64,000 nt of DNA from Otariodibacter sp. (GTDB taxonomy: Bacteria > Pseudomonadota > Gammaproteobacteria > Enterobacterales > Pasteurellaceae), in contig NZ_JARIDQ010000045.1 of the NCBI RefSeq assembly GCF_029256985.1, forward strand, positions 1-64,000, written 5' to 3'. A model generated the notes under the pieces. It had not been told where the DNA came from, did not search any database, and was given only the letters and a program-made list of their open reading frames with translations. The position numbers and the translations under genes are program-made. Shown here piece by piece: positions 42,176-62,487 of this stretch. Positions within the stretch are counted from its first letter, which is position 1, and each line of letters begins with the position of its first letter.

Positions 42176-44878
42176 CTAAGCATATTTTGCTTTATTTCCA
42201 TGACAGTGTTTATATTTTTTACCTGAGCCACAAGGACAAAGTTCATTTCGACCAATTTTTAGATTTGCTAACTCTTCATCAGTTAAAGTCTTCTCTTCAG
42301 CCCCCTCTTCCTCATACTGCATAGCTTCTTCTTCAGCATTCTCTATACGTTCTTTTTCAGCTTGTTCAACCTCTTCAGGATTGCGTACTTGAATACGACT
42401 AAGAATACTTATTACATTTGCTTTCAATAGATCCAACATATTGGTGAACATTTCGAAAGATTCTTTCTTATATTCTTGTTTCGGATCTTTCTGTGCATAG
42501 CCACGTAAATGAATTCCTTTACGTAAATAATCCATTGCTGCTAAATGTTCTTTCCACAGCTCATCTAAATTCTGTAACATTACACCTTTTTCAAAGTTAC
42601 GCATAATTTCAGAACCGACTATTGATTCTTTTTCTTCATACTGTTGTTTTGCAATATCAACAATACGCTCACGAATAATTTCTTCATGAATATCAGGTTC
42701 ATCATCTAACCATTGTGCAATTGGAAGATCTAAAGAAAATTCTTGTTTCAAGCGATTTTCAAGACCTTCAATATCCCACATTTCTTCGATAGATTGGGGT
42801 GGAATATATTGGTCGATCACTGCATTAAATACATCAACACGAATAGTGTTAATCATTGGCGAGATATCATCAGTTTCTAATAAATGATTACGCTGTTCAT
42901 AAATCGCTTTACGTTGCTCATTTGCTACATCATCATATTGTAAAAGTTGTTTACGCCCATCAAAGTTATGGGCTTCCACTTTCGCTTGGGCAGATGCAAT
43001 CACTTTTGTTAGTAATTTAGACTCCATCGCCTCGCCTTCTTCAGTGAAGGCTTTACGCATCATATTTAGTTTACCTTCATTTAGGTAAATACGCATAAGT
43101 GCATCATCTAACGATAGATAAAAACGTGATGAACCAGGGTCCCCTTGACGACCTGAACGACCACGTAACTGGTTATCAATACGGCGAGATTCATGTCGCT
43201 CTGTACCGATAATATGTAAACCGCCCGCTTTCATTACGATGTCGTGGCGTTCTTCCCATGCTTTTTTGATTGCTTCAATTTGTTCTTCCGTTGGATTGTC
43301 TAATTTTGCAACTTCAGCTTTCCAGTTACCACCTAGCACAATATCAGTACCACGCCCAGCCATATTGGTTGCAATAGTTACAGCTCCTGGATAGCCTGCA
43401 TCTGCTACAATTTCTGCTTCGTGCGCATGGAATTTAGCATTCAATACTTTATGTGGAATACCAGCTTTAGTTAAAGCCTCTGAAAGCGCTTCTGATTTTT
43501 CAATTGAAATTGTACCCACTAACACAGGCTGTTGGCGAGCAATGCAATCTTGGATATCTTTGATAACCGCTTGGAATTTTTCAGGTTCACTCTTAAACAT
43601 TAAATCCGTTCTATCATCACGGATCATTGGGCGATTTGTTGGAATAACCACAGTATCCAAGCCATAAATTTGTTGGAACTCAAACGCCTCAGTATCTGCT
43701 GTACCCGTCATCCCCGCTAATTTTTCATATAAACGGAAATAGTTTTGATAGGTAATTGAGGCAACAGTTTGGTTTTCACCCTGAATATTCACTTTTTCTT
43801 TTGCTTCAATTGCTTGGTGTAAACCATCAGACCAACGACGACCAGCCATTGTTCGACCCGTATGTTCGTCGATAATAACAACTTCCCCATCTTTCACAAT
43901 GTAATCTACATTGACTTCAAATAATTTATGCGCTCTTAATGCTGCATAAACGTGGTGCAATAAACCGATTCTTGCTGGTGAATAAAGGCTTTCATTTTCA
44001 GCCATTAAACCCATTTTAGTTAAAAGTTCTTCGACCTTAATCATTCCTCGTTCAGTTAAATGCGCCTGTTTATTTTTAAGATCTAAGGTAAAGTCACCAT
44101 CACCTGTATACTCCTCAGAATCCTCTTTATCTTGGGCGATTAAATGAGGGATAACTTGATCAATCGCTTGATAAATTTGAGTTGCATCTTCCGCTGGACC
44201 AGAAATAATTAATGGTGTACGCGCTTCATCAATTAAGATTGAATCTACTTCATCGACCAATGCATAGTGCAGAGGACGTTGAAAACGATCTTCTTTGCTA
44301 TGAGCCAAATTATCACGCAAATAGTCAAAGCCTAATTCGCTATTCGTTGCGTAAGTAATGTCTGCCGCATAAGCAGCTCGCTTTTCATCAGGCTGTAACC
44401 CCGGCACATTAACTGCAACTGTCAGTCCTAAAAATTCAAATAATGGACGGTTAGTTTCTGCATCACGACGAGCTAAGTAATCATTTACAGTAACAACGTG
44501 AACTCCTTTACCTGTTAACGCATTAAGATAACAAGGTAACGTTGCTGTTAAGGTTTTCCCTTCCCCTGTACGCATTTCTGCAATATTGCGATCAGTTAAG
44601 ACCATCCCACCGATCATCTGCACATCAAAATGTCTCATGTGCATGACACGTTTACTAGCTTCTCTCACTACCGCAAAAGCTTCATGTAATAAGCTATCTA
44701 ATGATGCACCATCTGCTAGACGTTGTCTAAATTCAGTCGTTTTGGCTTTTAATTCATCATCAGTTAATTTTTCAAATTCAGGTTCTAGTTTGTTGATTTG
44801 TACAACACGTTTGTTTAAACGGCGTAAAGTACGGTCGTTACTACTCCCAAAAATAGAAGTCATTAATTTAGTTAGCAT
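42176..44878 (-). CDS. secA: Preprotein translocase ATPase SecA
   Basis: Motor of Sec protein export, 900 residues. Walker [10 protein letters not shown] near residue 102, [19 protein letters not shown], the helicase II motif [25 protein letters not shown], and the C-terminal zinc tail [14 protein letters not shown] that binds SecB. AGGAAAGGA precedes the ATG. A SecM-type gene lies 91 bases upstream on the same strand, so secA translation is probably raised when SecM stalls during secretion stress. Confidence 0.98.
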
Positions 44879-44969
44879 AAAATCCTTTCCTAATTAGTTT
44901 TATTTTTCAAAAATTGATAGACATAAATTTAAATCCTTATATCTATTTTTACTTAAATATAACAATAAA

Positions 44970-45299
44970 TTAACGAAGAAATGGACCAGCACGAATAGGA
45001 GGAACTTCACTTGTGATAAAGCGGTAAGATCTTGCAAAAAATTTGCCAAAAGTAACCGCTTGTCGTACATTGAAAGTTGTTGGAATGTGATTATTTAATA
45101 AATGGATATGTTGATGAACAACACTCTTGACAGAAGCGTGTTCGCTTAACGCTTCCGCAATAATTTGTTGATTAATTTCAGCATTTGTTGCATTTTCTCG
45201 TAAAATTGCTTGTGTTTCTGGTAACACCAAAATCGCAACAAACCCCAAGAGTAATTGCGACCAAAAAGGTGAACGATGTAATTGACGAAAAAATCCCAT
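44970..45299 (-). CDS. secM: SecM secretion monitor (ribosome arrest peptide)
   Basis: 109 residues directly upstream of secA. A hydrophobic export signal (FWSQLLLGFVAILVLPETQA) lies at residues 12-31. The protein ends FITSEVPPIRAGPFLR: Ile102-Arg103-Ala104-Gly105-Pro106 is the E. coli SecM arrest core (GIRAGP), with the stop three codons after the Pro as in E. coli. The residue before Ile is Pro, not Gly, and it is preceded by a second Pro; the spacing to the upstream aromatic (Phe94) differs by one from FxxxxWIxxxxGIRAGP. TTCCT near its 3' end could pair with AGGAA of the secA ribosome-binding site. Identification rests on position, signal and motif together. Confidence 0.88.
   Translation of the reverse strand: MGFFRQLHRSPFWSQLLLGFVAILVLPETQAILRENATNAEINQQIIAEALSEHASVKSVVHQHIHLLNNHIPTTFNVRQAVTFGKFFARSYRFITSEVPPIRAGPFLR
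45019..45061. repeat. Inverted pair of uptake-signal cores inside secM
   Basis: AAGCGGT (45019-45025) and ACCGCTT (45055-45061) face each other within secM, with TTGCAAAAAATTTGCCAAAAG between. They could form a 7-bp hairpin in the mRNA just before the arrest codons. Confidence 0.7.
45055..45063 (-). repeat. DNA uptake signal inside secM
   Basis: ACCGCTTGT, exact core, encoding the RQAV segment of SecM on the opposite strand. Confidence 0.88.
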
Positions 45300-45354
45300 T
45301 AATTTAATAGTATGCCATTTAAAAAGTATTGAGTTGATTATACGATACTTTTCA

Positions 45355-45383
45355 TAGAATATCTCAATAATTAAGATATTCTA
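45355..45383. repeat. Inverted repeat between secM and the dciA-like gene
   Basis: TAGAATATCT-CAATAATTA-AGATATTCTA, a perfect 10-bp inverted repeat in the 115-base divergent promoter region. Could be an operator or a hairpin at the 5' end of either transcript. Confidence 0.6.
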
Positions 45384-45414
45384 TCCAGAAATTAGCCTAG
45401 GGTATGATAAAAAG

Positions 45415-45723
45415 ATGAAAATTCAGTCAGTAAAAAATATTATAGACATCTTAGAAAATTCGAGTCTATCAAAAATTGTGCAAAAGAGTAATCAGATTAA
45501 TACGCTCAATGAACATCTTAAGTATCAATTACCAGAGCAATATAAGCCTCTATTTAGAGTAACAAACATCCATCATAAATCAGTCACTATTGATGTGAAA
45601 AATGCTTCTGTCCACCAAGGTTTCTTGCTACAACGTGCATTTTTACTTAAACTGATACAAACAGAATTTCCTCATATCACACAATTAGAGTTGAGAGTTA
45701 ATCCTGATTTTAAATCTATTTAG
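45415..45723 (+). CDS. DUF721 / DciA-like replicative helicase operator
   Basis: 102 residues of the DUF721 type (SVKNIIDILENSSLSKIVQKSNQINTLNEHLKYQLPEQYKPLFRV then VKNASVHQGFLLQRAFLLKLIQ). In bacteria without DnaC, DciA binds DnaB and helps load it. In Pseudomonas and others a DUF721 gene lies divergently beside secM/secA, as here, which strengthens the assignment. It is a minimal single-domain version. The assignment as DciA is from memory of family and synteny. Confidence 0.75.
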   Translation: MKIQSVKNIIDILENSSLSKIVQKSNQINTLNEHLKYQLPEQYKPLFRVTNIHHKSVTIDVKNASVHQGFLLQRAFLLKLIQTEFPHITQLELRVNPDFKSI

Positions 45724-45754: not shown

Positions 45755-46138
45755 ATGAATATGAAAACATTAGCAGTATTTGGTATCACAGCACTATTAA
45801 GCGCTTGCTCATTGCTACCAGAAAAAACCGTTTCAGGAACTTATAAAGGAACATTACCTTGTGCCGACTGCGAGAAAATTGAAGCGAATATCATATTGAA
45901 TAATGATAAAACTTATCAATATAATGCTGTATTCTTCAAAAATAAAGAACAATATCCATTTATTGAAAAAGGTACTTACGAATGGTATCCAGAGAAAACA
46001 GATGTGCTTAAATTAAGTGACTCTAGAAACCTCACATTACATATTACTGATAGTTATATCGAATTATATGATGCAGAAGGCAATGCGCCAGAAAGCGGAT
46101 TAAGCTATAAACTTGAAAAAGTAACACTAAATAAATAA
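45755..46138 (+). CDS. NlpE-like lipoprotein (N-terminal domain only)
   Basis: 127 residues with a lipoprotein signal (MKTLAVFGITALLSAC). After it comes the NlpE N-terminal signature SGTYKGTLPCADCEKIEANIILNNDKTYQY, including the CADC motif. E. coli NlpE (~236 aa) has a second OB-fold domain, absent here. NlpE reports copper, redox or lipoprotein trafficking stress to Cpx; whether this short form signals is unknown. GAGAGGACATT precedes the start. It lies 31 bases after the DUF721 gene. Confidence 0.82.
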   Translation: MNMKTLAVFGITALLSACSLLPEKTVSGTYKGTLPCADCEKIEANIILNNDKTYQYNAVFFKNKEQYPFIEKGTYEWYPEKTDVLKLSDSRNLTLHITDSYIELYDAEGNAPESGLSYKLEKVTLNK

Positions 46139-46664: not shown

Positions 46665-47636
46665 TTATTGATTAATAAATGATTGCTGATCTTCACCTTC
46701 TTTTTCTACAACAGGCTGAATCATATGTTCTCGTTTTAATCCTAACTGTAACGCTAAGCCAATTGCAACATAGATAGATGAGTAAGTACCAAATCCAATT
46801 CCGATCAATAATGCTAGAGAGAAGCTATGTAATGTAGGACCACCTAACCAATATAGTGCAAGTACAACCACTAATGTGGTCAATGAAGTCATTAATGTTC
46901 TTGATAAGGTTTGACTTAATGAAACATTAATTACTTCAGCTGATGTTGCTCGACGAATTTTTGGGAAATTTTCTCTCACACGGTCAAATACGACAATACT
47001 ATCATTTAGTGAATATCCTACCACTGATAAAATTGCAGCAACAAAGGTAAGATCTATTTCAATTTGTAGAAATGAAAAAAGTCCCACTGTTACTAGCACA
47101 TCATGAAATAATGCAACAATACCACCGACAGCAAGCCTCCATTCAAATCGGATTCCAACATAAACAAGTAACATGCCTAATGTTGCTAAAGTCGCATAAA
47201 TAGCCCCTTGGGTTAATTCTTCTCCAACATTTGGACCAACAAACTCAATGCTTTGTATTCGAGCATTTGAATCTACTTGTTGATGAATAAGTGACATCAC
47301 ATTGGTGCCCACATTCATATCGCCTTCTGACGAAGGTAATCGAATCATAACATCTCGTTGCCCACCAAAAGTTTGGACTAAGGCACTAGGATAGCCATTC
47401 TTATCTAATATACTACGTATTTGATTTAAATCAGCTGGTTGAGAAAAATTGGTCTCAATTACTGTACCTCCTGTAAAATCTAACCCCCAGTTGAATCCTT
47501 TAGTTACGATACTAAAAATACAAAATACTAAAACTGCAATTGAAAAAGTATATGCAATAAGCCGATATTTCATAAAGGGAATCAATTTGTATGGAAGTTT
47601 AATTTCCCCTACATTTTTTTCTATTTTTCTAGCCAT
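46665..47636 (-). CDS. secF: Protein translocase subunit SecF
   Basis: 323 residues with six helices and a large periplasmic loop after the first. GLDFTGGTVIETNF, the VVGYSLNDSIVVFDRVRENF segment (helix 4) and LSRTLMTSLTTLVVVLALYWLGG are conserved. With SecD it uses the proton motive force to complete export. Separated from secD by 9 bases. Confidence 0.97.
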   Translation of the reverse strand: MARKIEKNVGEIKLPYKLIPFMKYRLIAYTFSIAVLVFCIFSIVTKGFNWGLDFTGGTVIETNFSQPADLNQIRSILDKNGYPSALVQTFGGQRDVMIRLPSSEGDMNVGTNVMSLIHQQVDSNARIQSIEFVGPNVGEELTQGAIYATLATLGMLLVYVGIRFEWRLAVGGIVALFHDVLVTVGLFSFLQIEIDLTFVAAILSVVGYSLNDSIVVFDRVRENFPKIRRATSAEVINVSLSQTLSRTLMTSLTTLVVVLALYWLGGPTLHSFSLALLIGIGFGTYSSIYVAIGLALQLGLKREHMIQPVVEKEGEDQQSFINQ

Positions 47637-47645
47637 TTGTTCCCC

Positions 47646-49490
47646 TTAAATCCAAAGTTTTTTCACGCGTTTTCCACCATAAGTCCAGTTCACGAGCATA
47701 CGTGTACCTGTTATAGCAGTAAACATTGATATTAATACTCCTAGAGCCAAAGTTATTGCGAAACCTTTAATTGGCCCTGTTCCGATGGAGTAAAGGATAA
47801 GTGCAACGAGGATAGTTGTTAAGTTAGAATCGAAGATACTAGTAAATGCACCACTATAACCTTCATGAATCGCTTGTTGAATAGAACGTCCGTTACGAAT
47901 TTCTTCTTTAATCCGTTCATAAATAAGTACGTTAGCATCAACTGACATTCCTACAGAAAGTACAATACCGGCAATACCTGGCATCGTTAGTGTTGCACCA
48001 ATCATTGACATAAGTCCAATAGTCAAAATTAAATTCACTATTAAGGCTAGAGAAGCAAATACTCCAAAGACTTTATAATAGACTAAGCAGAATATGATTG
48101 TTAAAGCTAATCCTAACAAGCTTGCATCCATCCCTTGGGCAACATTGTCAGCACCAAGAGAGGCACCGATAGTACGCTCTTCTACAATAACAATAGGAGC
48201 GATAAGTGCACCAGAGCGGAGTAACACAGCAAGATTTTGAGCTTCCGCTGCGCTATTAAGACCAGTAATTTGAAATTGACTACCTAAACGAGAGTTAATC
48301 GTTGCAACATTGATCACCTCTTCATGTTTTTCAAGAATAACTTTTCCTTGGCTATCTTTACGCCCACTATCCTTATATTCACTATATAGTGTAGCCATTG
48401 GTTTACCTACAGCACTCTTAGTGGCATTTCCCATTAAATCCCCACCCGCACCATCTAGGTTTATACTAACTTGTGGTAAACCTCTTTCATCAAGACCTGA
48501 ACTAGCATTAATAATGTGTTCACCACCAAGTACTGCTCGGCGAAATAATACGACTGGCTGACCATCTTGAGTAAATTTAACTTCTGAATCTGCTGGTACA
48601 ATTCCTCTAGCTGCAGATTCTGGACTTGCTGTTGTATTAACCAAACGAAACTCTAAAGTAGCAGTAGCACCTAGGATTTCTTTTGCCCTCGCAGTATCTT
48701 GAACACCCGGTAATTCAACAACAATACGATCAGCTCCTTGACGTTGAATAGTCGGTTCAGATACACCAAGCTCTTCTACACGTTTGCGTAAGATTGATAA
48801 ATTTTGCTCAATCGCTGTATCTCTAGCTTCAGATAATCCATCTTCTGACGGAGCAAATGAAACGGTCGTTGGATTTAAATAAGTTGGTGTTAAATTAGTG
48901 TGTGTTCTGCGAATATAGCGCACAGCTTTATCTGCGATATCAGCATCATTAAACTCAATTTCGTTAGCAAAATTATCTACTTTTTTTATCGATTTATATT
49001 GCAATTTTTCGGTACGAAATTCATGTCTTAAGCTATCTTGAAGTTGTTCTTGTTGCTTTAACAAAGCAGTGTTCATATCAACTTCCATTAGGAAACGTAC
49101 ACCACCAAGTAAGTCAAGACCTTGTTTCATTGGTGAACCACCAATGGATGAAAGCCATTTAGGGGTTGCTGCTGCTAAATTTAATGCAACAGAAAAATTA
49201 TCACCTAACTCGTCGGCAATTTTTTCCTTTACAGGAAGTTGTTGCTCGGCTTTAGATAAGCGAACAAGAATAGAACCCTTATTAAGGCTAACAGCCTTTG
49301 GAGTAATATTCATTGATTGTAGTACATCTTGTACTTGAGTAAGAGTTTCAGTTGAGGCTTGTTGACCACGAGTTCCTGAAATTTGAACGGAAGGGTCATC
49401 ACCATATAAATTTGGAAGGGCGTATAAAGCACCAATGGCGATCAAAATGATCACCATCAGATTCTTCCATAGAGGGAAACGATTTAACAC
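47646..49490 (-). CDS. secD: Protein translocase subunit SecD
   Basis: 614 residues, matching the ~615 of E. coli. One N-terminal helix, the periplasmic P1 domain (GLDLLGGVRFLMEVDMNTALL), then five helices with GMSVDANVLIYERIKEEIRNGRS near residue 515 and FDSNLTTILVALILYSIGTGPIKGFAITL. The Asp in VDANVLIYERI is implicated in proton coupling. Part of yajC-secD-secF. Confidence 0.98.
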   Translation of the reverse strand: MLNRFPLWKNLMVIILIAIGALYALPNLYGDDPSVQISGTRGQQASTETLTQVQDVLQSMNITPKAVSLNKGSILVRLSKAEQQLPVKEKIADELGDNFSVALNLAAATPKWLSSIGGSPMKQGLDLLGGVRFLMEVDMNTALLKQQEQLQDSLRHEFRTEKLQYKSIKKVDNFANEIEFNDADIADKAVRYIRRTHTNLTPTYLNPTTVSFAPSEDGLSEARDTAIEQNLSILRKRVEELGVSEPTIQRQGADRIVVELPGVQDTARAKEILGATATLEFRLVNTTASPESAARGIVPADSEVKFTQDGQPVVLFRRAVLGGEHIINASSGLDERGLPQVSINLDGAGGDLMGNATKSAVGKPMATLYSEYKDSGRKDSQGKVILEKHEEVINVATINSRLGSQFQITGLNSAAEAQNLAVLLRSGALIAPIVIVEERTIGASLGADNVAQGMDASLLGLALTIIFCLVYYKVFGVFASLALIVNLILTIGLMSMIGATLTMPGIAGIVLSVGMSVDANVLIYERIKEEIRNGRSIQQAIHEGYSGAFTSIFDSNLTTILVALILYSIGTGPIKGFAITLALGVLISMFTAITGTRMLVNWTYGGKRVKKLWI

Positions 49491-61101: not shown

Positions 61102-62487
61102 ATGAAAAAATTAATGAAAAAATCTGTGATTACCTCTTTAATCTTAGGATTAAGTGTATTAAGTGTTCCAACAGTTTCACAAGCATCTTTACCAACAGCT
61201 GTAGATGGACAAAATATACCCAGCTTAGCACCAATGTTAGAAAAAGTACGTCCTGCAGTGGTGAGTATTATTGTGGAAGGTAAAAAAGAAATGCGTTCAT
61301 CTCGTGCTGATATACCTGATGAATTTGAATTTTTCTTTGGACCAAATGGATTTAATGATAGCAGAGTAGCACCTCGAGCATTCAAAGGCGAAGGTTCAGG
61401 TGCGATTATCAATGCTCAAAAAGGTTATGTGGTAACCAATAACCATGTAATTGATAGTGCGGATAAAATCACTGTTAAACTTGATGATGGTCGTGAATTT
61501 AAGGCTAAATTAATTGGTACAGATCCACTTTCTGATGTCGCTTTAATTCAAATCGAAAATCCTAAAGATTTAGTTGAAATCAAAATTGCAGATTCAGATA
61601 AATTACGTGTAGGTGATTTTACTGTGGCAATTGGTAACCCATTCGGTTTAGGCCAAACAGTTACATCAGGAATTGTATCTGCACTAGGTAGATCAACAGG
61701 TAATAGTGACGAAGGCTATGAAAGCTATATCCAAACAGATGCAGCAGTAAACCGTGGTAATTCAGGTGGCCCTCTTATCAACTTACAAGGTGAATTAATC
61801 GGAATTAATACAGCAATTATCTCACCAAACGGTGGAAATGCGGGTATTGCCTTTGCTATTCCAAGTAATATGGCAAATAATCTAGTACAACAAATTATCG
61901 AATTTGGTGAAGTAAAACGTGGCTTACTTGGTATTAAAGGTGGAGAACTTAATGCCGACTTAGCGAAAGCATTCAATATTAGTGCACAACAGGGTGCTTT
62001 CGTGAGTGAAGTGTTAGAAGATTCTGCTGCTGCCAAAGCAGGCTTAAAAGCTGGTGATGTAATCATTGCTTTAAATGGCCAAAAAATCCGTAGCTTTGCC
62101 GAATTAAGAGCAAAAGTTGCGACTACTGGTGCAGGTAAAGAAATCGAAGTCACTTACCTAAGAGACGGTAAACAAGAAAAAGCGAAAGTAACGCTACAAT
62201 CTGATGAATTGACTAAGACAAGTGCTAGCACATTATTACCAGCCTTAAAAGGTGCAGAATTTAATAATTACAATGATAAAGACATAAAAGGTGTTGAAAT
62301 TTCTAATGTAGAAAAAGGCTCTCTAGCAGAATTAAGAAACTTCAAGAAAGGCGATATTATCATCGGTGTAAACCGTAAAAAAGTAGAAAATATTGGTGAT
62401 TTACGTAAAATTCTTGACTCAAAACCTTCAGTAACCGCCTTTAATATTTTAAGAGGTAACGCTGAAATCTATATCATTATTCAATAA
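61102..62487 (+). CDS. degQ: DegP/DegQ-type periplasmic serine protease
   Basis: 461 residues with a signal peptide (VITSLILGLSVLSVPTVSQAS). Trypsin-like domain with His in VVTNNHVIDS, Asp in DPLSDVALIQI and Ser in NRGNSGGPLINLQGE; then two PDZ domains (GAFVSEVLEDSAAAKAGLKAGDVIIALNGQ and VEISNVEKGSLAELRNFKKGDIIIGVNRKKV). Degrades or chaperones misfolded envelope proteins. The absence of a long loop LA suggests DegQ rather than DegP. AAGGAAAATAAA precedes the ATG. Confidence 0.93.
   Translation: MKKLMKKSVITSLILGLSVLSVPTVSQASLPTAVDGQNIPSLAPMLEKVRPAVVSIIVEGKKEMRSSRADIPDEFEFFFGPNGFNDSRVAPRAFKGEGSGAIINAQKGYVVTNNHVIDSADKITVKLDDGREFKAKLIGTDPLSDVALIQIENPKDLVEIKIADSDKLRVGDFTVAIGNPFGLGQTVTSGIVSALGRSTGNSDEGYESYIQTDAAVNRGNSGGPLINLQGELIGINTAIISPNGGNAGIAFAIPSNMANNLVQQIIEFGEVKRGLLGIKGGELNADLAKAFNISAQQGAFVSEVLEDSAAAKAGLKAGDVIIALNGQKIRSFAELRAKVATTGAGKEIEVTYLRDGKQEKAKVTLQSDELTKTSASTLLPALKGAEFNNYNDKDIKGVEISNVEKGSLAELRNFKKGDIIIGVNRKKVENIGDLRKILDSKPSVTAFNILRGNAEIYIIIQ

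Follow-up and report, generated by a model that had tools for sequence, protein, structure and literature searches.

The short SecM of Otariodibacter: a di-proline arrest core recurrent in Pasteurellaceae and a DNA-uptake word within the coding sequence

Mannheimia succiniciproducens SecM (NF038363/PF10818) ends in the arrest sequence HAPIRGSP, and the engineered peptide HPPIRGSP, designated SecM(Ms-Sup1), is strongly stalling (PMC4571824). Both sequences, named in a first-pass annotation of the DNA described here, are real peptides, and the strength given there for the engineered form was accurate. In short-class SecM proteins, the distance between signal sequence and arrest point has a median of 71 residues (PMC10987492). 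When Escherichia coli SecM (PF06558; FSTPVWISQAQGIRAGP) arrests translation, Gly165 occupies the P site and Pro166-tRNA the A site (PMC10951299), and SecM(Ec-Sup1), FSTPVWISQAPPIRAGP, stands at the top of three arrest peptides ordered by increasing strength and is termed strong (PMC7886326). The RAPP-type peptides ApdA and ApdP are reported to adopt the same conformation as SecM near the peptidyl-transferase center (PMC12992588, PMC10951233).

The window, a 64,000-nucleotide stretch of contig NZ_JARIDQ010000045.1 from Otariodibacter sp. (assembly GCF_029256985.1), contains on its minus strand an ATG-initiated ORF of 109 residues (45299..44970) that corresponds to SecM_small, the short Pasteurellaceae type. 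In profile searches, this ORF scored 80.9 bits against NF038363 SecM_small (cut-off 45) and 72.6 bits against PF10818 (cut-off 26.1), while the long-SecM profile PF06558 had no match in the Otariodibacter genome. PF10818 is present in 139 of 140 Pasteurellaceae genomes, so that this secM is a typical representative of an established family. The regulated gene, secA, encodes 900 residues (42176..44878, minus strand; NF009538, 1263.8 bits; TIGR00963, 1100.5 bits) and starts 91 nt after the secM stop codon on the same strand, with no terminator-like site in the gap; at each of the 139 family loci read, secM immediately precedes secA. No Rfam match was obtained within 44700-45500, and no match to phage records was found. 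The stretch first flagged (44970-45030) encodes the C-terminal 20 residues of the protein, and its identification as SecM was correct: both short-type profiles score above their cut-offs, secA follows, and the PPIRAGP ending was verified. Several neighboring ORFs were also recorded. A short DciA-like protein (45415-45723, plus strand; 24.2 bits, just above the cut-off) diverges from secM and is followed by a lipoprotein with only an NlpE N-terminal domain (45755-46138, plus strand); secF-like and secD-like ORFs (46665-49490, minus strand) share the strand of secM-secA and precede it by a few genes.

The N-terminal export signal is predicted, from its basic start and hydrophobic core, to span residues 1-32, MGFFRQLHRSPFWSQLLLGFVAILVLPETQAI (45204..45299, minus strand). 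Its hydrophobic core covers residues 12-26, with a mean Kyte-Doolittle value of up to 2.25, and F12, S14, A22, L26 and P27 are invariant in an alignment (A1). At the other end, the protein terminates in EVPPIRAGPFLR; its C-terminus, RFITSEVPPIRAGPFLR, is followed directly by the stop codon and comprises EVPPIRAGP and the tail FLR. The arrest core P100-P101-I-R-A-G-P106 occupies 44982..45002 of the minus strand, as delimited by family conservation and by the stall geometry of E. coli SecM (PMC10951299). Within it, P100-P101 are encoded by CCT CCT (45002..44997) and I102-R103-A104-G105-P106 by 44996..44982; the FLR tail (44981..44973) and the stop codon (44972..44970) complete the ORF. The predicted spacer between signal and arrest point, from residue 32 to P106, is 74 residues long. 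Across all six-frame open frames of at least 60 residues, RAGP occurs once in the window, in secM. An RGPP sequence in a minus-strand frame at 61725..62153 was disregarded, as that ORF is antisense to a larger plus-strand ORF.

These features place the Otariodibacter protein closest to the Mannheimia succiniciproducens SecM, with which it shares length, signal, a spacer of approximately 71-74 residues, position before secA, and a core comprising Pro at -5 (counted back from the arrest proline) and IR..P. IRAGP followed by FLR matches the SecM_small pattern of I-R-[AG]-[GS]-P and a short tail. The two proteins differ in their endings, APIRGSP in Mannheimia and PPIRAGP here, and in the preceding segment: the window SecM, a member of the Apl-USS clade, has QAVxFxxFFAxSYR there, whereas the Mannheimia type carries PHF. 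With E. coli SecM, the protein has in common the IRAGP core, the function before secA and the predicted stall geometry, but E. coli SecM is about 60 residues longer, and long SecMs carry Gly at -5 (32 of 32 read) where the window SecM carries Pro. The long-SecM pattern FxxxxWIxxxxGIRAGP is accordingly absent, with Pro replacing Gly and no F, W or I at -16, -11 and -10. The laboratory peptides likewise differ upstream, Ec-Sup1 and Ms-Sup1 retaining the E. coli segment FSTPVWISQ where the window SecM has FFARSYRFITSEV. An Arg-Ala-x-Pro ending is shared with ApdA and ApdP, yet these peptides have consecutive prolines at the stall codons themselves, whereas the window SecM reads R-A-G-P there and places Pro-Pro four codons earlier.

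The reading that we favor, at a probability of roughly 85%, is that the ORF is a working short-type Pasteurellaceae SecM whose stalling unmasks the secA Shine-Dalgarno region until export pulls on the nascent chain. In this mechanism, the SecM signal sequence would engage the Sec machinery during synthesis, and the stalled ribosome would sit on the arrest and tail codons, which would otherwise mask the secA Shine-Dalgarno region; SecA synthesis would then climb until export freed the nascent chain. Pro at -5 would act as the near-fixed family counterpart of E. coli Gly161, with Pro at -6 as a recurrent variant. This reading is supported by the sequence and its family assignment, by conservation and the fixed register, by the comparative pairing of secM ends with secA ribosome-binding sites, and by the presence in the genome of the uL22 tunnel loop (MKRVMPRAKGRADRILKR), EF-P and EpmA, while the displacement of the upstream residues from the E. 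coli FxxxxWI register counts against it. The absence of an evident strong ribosome-binding site before the secM ATG might suggest that the gene is a decayed or nonfunctional remnant. This is very improbable, given that the frame is open and is 85% identical to the secM of the sister species, that signal and arrest core are intact in both, and that the core Ile, Arg and final Pro are invariant in all 139 SecMs of the family.

The predicted masking helix was identified by MFE folding and duplex computation. Its 5' arm comprises the GGU CCA arrest codons, the FLR codons and the stop (44970..44988, minus strand), and its 3' arm is the secA Shine-Dalgarno region (44880..44897, minus strand), with AGGAAAGGA at 44891..44883. 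The computed duplex between the secM end and the secA ribosome-binding site has an energy of -10.9 kcal/mol in the window. The predicted unpaired fraction of this site increases from 0.12 in the free transcript to 0.49 with a ribosome stalled at P106, and a rise of this size was not reached in any of 60 shuffled versions of the upstream sequence; across 43 genera, the predicted stall-dependent opening is modest (p = 0.024 versus shuffles). Two results weigh against the favored reading. In the sister species, the fold model predicts no opening, with unpaired fractions of 0.30 before and 0.24 after stalling, although the direct duplex is stronger, at -12.2. The window leader as a whole folds no more stably than shuffled sequences (z -0.51).

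Comparative support was obtained from a cognate test, in which the duplex energy of each genus's own secM end and secA ribosome-binding site was compared by permutation with that of mismatched combinations. Cognate duplexes were stronger in the clade of the window (permutation 0.0005) and across all genera (0.0015), but the test was negative in the other clade (0.24), which likewise counts against the favored reading. The signal was confined to the arrest-codon and tail segments, being absent for segments from -172 to -32 and in the spacer; segment -212 gave a nominal 0.03, which was attributed to noise given that 33 tests were run. Cognate pairing of this kind in the window's clade is what a release of secA masking by a stalled ribosome would predict, and the modeled masking scheme would agree with that of E. 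coli (PMC10987492).

The survey of the arrest core covered secM-secA junctions from 139 Pasteurellaceae genomes in 43 genera, 42 genomes (17 genera) belonging to the window's clade (A) and 97 to the other clade (B). Pro occupies position -5, that of E. coli Gly161, in 132 of the 139 SecMs. Position -6 is more variable, with Ala in 67, Pro in 31, His in 11, Thr in 9, Tyr in 8 and other residues in the remainder. Pro-Pro is thus found in 31 genomes distributed over 17 of the 43 genera, as PPIRAGP in 30 and as PPIRGSP in one. Named records among these 31 include Haemophilus ducreyi, Pasteurella canis and Bisgaard taxon 45, and the sister species (G104) ends in IPPIRAGPFFS. All 42 clade A genomes have Pro at -5, and the genus-weighted frequency of Pro at -6 in this clade is 71%. 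On a tree built from the first 600 nt of secA, Pro-Pro requires eight changes by parsimony, at least six of them forced by well-supported branches. The natural di-proline form is therefore not special to this organism, and its restriction to the Otariodibacter lineage was ruled out by the 17 genera that carry it. The window SecM is an ordinary family SecM whose strong-looking core is common in the family, and its di-proline is not new in kind; an ending built in laboratories as a strong arrest peptide has been used repeatedly in nature.

The codons of the di-proline bear on a further explanation, in which CCTCCT would be conserved because its RNA pairs with the secA Shine-Dalgarno sequence and not because it encodes Pro-Pro. 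CCUCCU is indeed complementary to AGGAGG-like sites, and the secA Shine-Dalgarno sequence is AGGAAAGGA. The 31 Pro-Pro genomes nevertheless use 11 of the 16 possible codon pairs, CCTCCT being unique to Otariodibacter, which argues for selection on the peptide, not on the bases; moreover, the predicted helix is built from GGU CCA and the tail. We rejected this pairing, which the codon table largely refutes by showing that the proline codons vary freely, and its chance of being correct is minimal.

With respect to arrest strength, the PPIRAGP of the window SecM is identical over seven residues to the ending of Ec-Sup1, and Ms-Sup1 is matched by the natural PPIRGSP of one genome of the survey (G030, locus L088), in which the Hin uptake word has also moved by one codon (-55). 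The seven-residue identity makes a strong arrest plausible in the window SecM, and Pro at -6 probably strengthens it, by analogy with Ec-Sup1. From the sequence and its relatives, we infer that this SecM stalls, with what strength it does so, and that export releases it. Arrest peptides generally operate within the ribosomal tunnel as chains with little folding.

By analogy with E. coli SecM, the predicted stall of the window SecM would have G105 at the P site and P106-tRNA at the A site. The first-pass annotation had also proposed that Pro-Pro might render stalling sensitive to EF-P, and a developed form of this idea holds that ribosomes pause at V-P-P|I and that the EF-P level tunes SecM stalling and SecA. 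PPX motifs are able to pause in efp mutants, although detectable pausing occurs in only 2.8% of them (PMC4140641), and the Otariodibacter genome encodes both EF-P and its modifier EpmA. The final stall itself is unlikely to be sensitive, because the P site would hold Gly-tRNA instead of Pro-tRNA (PMC10951299), with the Pro-Pro bond four codons behind. Furthermore, the related RAPP arrests persist in the presence of EF-P (PMC12992588), and Ec-Sup1 is described as strong in work on living E. coli, an organism that has EF-P (PMC7886326). We consequently regard EF-P tuning of SecM and SecA as improbable.

Upstream of the arrest core, secM contains an extended Apl-type uptake signal on the minus strand (45031..45063), composed of an exact 9-mer core, ACAAGCGGT (45063..45055), and AT tracts, and translated as (R)QAVTFGKFFAR, residues 79-90. 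The core has 311 exact copies in the genome, compared with 28 for a reversed control. Scored with an extended motif derived from 44 sites of the Otariodibacter genome, the secM copy reaches 17.8, while the other signals of the genome average 12.3 and random positions -16.2. The copy shares with the known Pasteurellaceae Hin- and Apl-USS the exact 9-mer, the extended AT tracts and a dialect that follows the clade; it differs in that most genomes of a clade have one copy at an unchanging codon position within a single short regulatory gene. Across the loci examined (L001-L144), 33 of the 42 genomes of the window's clade have an exact ACAAGCGGT at one and the same nucleotide (-79 relative to the arrest Pro codon), where it encodes QAV...FF. 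Of the 97 genomes of the other clade, 67 have the reversed Hin-type word ACCGCACTT at -52, translated as the conserved P-H-F. In the first 600 nt of secA at the same loci, no genome contained the exact uptake word.

The stretch at residues -27 to -16 relative to the arrest point thus represents an uptake signal in translation, and its codon choice points to maintenance at the DNA level. Within the same genes, Ala is encoded by GCG in 38 of 39 cases in uptake words and in 5 of 42 in the arrest core, Arg by CGC in 27 of 28 versus 1 of 42, and Pro by CCG in 71 of 74 versus 24 of 90, with p-values for this bias overstated because the genomes are related. Near-fixed codons in the words alongside mixed codons in the arrest core indicate a DNA-level constraint.

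This weakens a protein-level account in which QAVxFxxFFAKSYR in clade A and PHF in clade B are tunnel contacts and the match to uptake signals is secondary. Consistent with such contacts, residues -27 to -16 (RQAVTFGKFFAR in the window) are conserved at a fixed distance from the arrest point in the window's clade, with the register fixed from -24 to 0, and E. coli SecM requires Phe150 at -16 (PMC10951299). The uptake dialect nonetheless switches with the clade, and in the 30 genomes (15 genera) without the Hin word, Pro is present in only 9 and His in 10, whereas IR..P is retained in all 30; Phe at -15 persists in 12, which is the outcome more in keeping with a tunnel contact. Overall, we consider tunnel contacts an unlikely primary cause, albeit one that retains some weight.

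The uptake core is accompanied by an inverted partner, ACCGCTTT, at codons Y92-R93-F94 (45018..45025, minus strand), which is complementary to CAAGCGGT at seven of eight positions. Core and inverted half-copy (45018-45063, minus strand) form a predicted mRNA stem-loop of -14.1 kcal/mol (local fold z -2.0), lying between 79 and 33 nt before the arrest Pro codon. At least seven of eight pairs are possible in 28 of 42 clade A genomes, and covariation in this clade was limited to one two-sided, compensatory change (G084), which is not convincing. It has been considered that a selfishly maintained uptake signal supplies the tunnel-lining residues next to the arrest core, that its partner forms the stem-loop, and that a stronger stall due to Pro-Pro makes up for a word that is lost or out of register. 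Within the PHF clade, the in-register word is missing in 12 of 13 Pro-Pro SecMs and in 18 of 84 others (Fisher 1e-6, ignoring relatedness); among five independent pairs, two to three agree and none disagree. With only these five pairs, compensation for the lost word in that clade is not established, and we hold the combined proposal to be doubtful.

A search of mostly open-access literature returned no description of an uptake signal inside secM. In a 2025 search for the USS receptor, SecM belongs to the proteins whose correlation with USS dialect is highest, and the correlation is attributed to Sec-dependent pilin export; intragenic signals are noted for TrmO but, in the sections consulted, not for SecM (PMC12616744). 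Because secM itself carries a word in the dialect of its clade, the embedded signal offers a simpler explanation of the reported "coevolution" of SecM and USS. Conserved SecM residues taken as ribosome contacts may thus owe their presence to DNA, making secM a clear test case of uptake bias shaping a regulatory peptide, and the embedded word a more surprising point than the di-proline.

The survey also yielded arrest endings that depart from the common pattern. In seven SecMs (G013, G026, G051-G053, G058 and G097; loci L141, L123, L144, L142, L140, L045 and L139), Leu, Ser or Ile replaces Pro at -5, as in ILIRAGP and YSIRAGP, providing a natural substitution series. Together, dozens of natural variants, with Pro, Ala, His, Tyr, Thr or Asn at -6 and RAGP, RGSP or RASP endings, are available for force-sensor calibration. 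Finally, SecM-like GIRAGP endings occur in three further members of the order (G148, G172 and G143; loci L182, L183 and L181) that fall outside the main PF06558 family and come from families coded f10 and f5, two of the three with weak or below-cut-off family scores.
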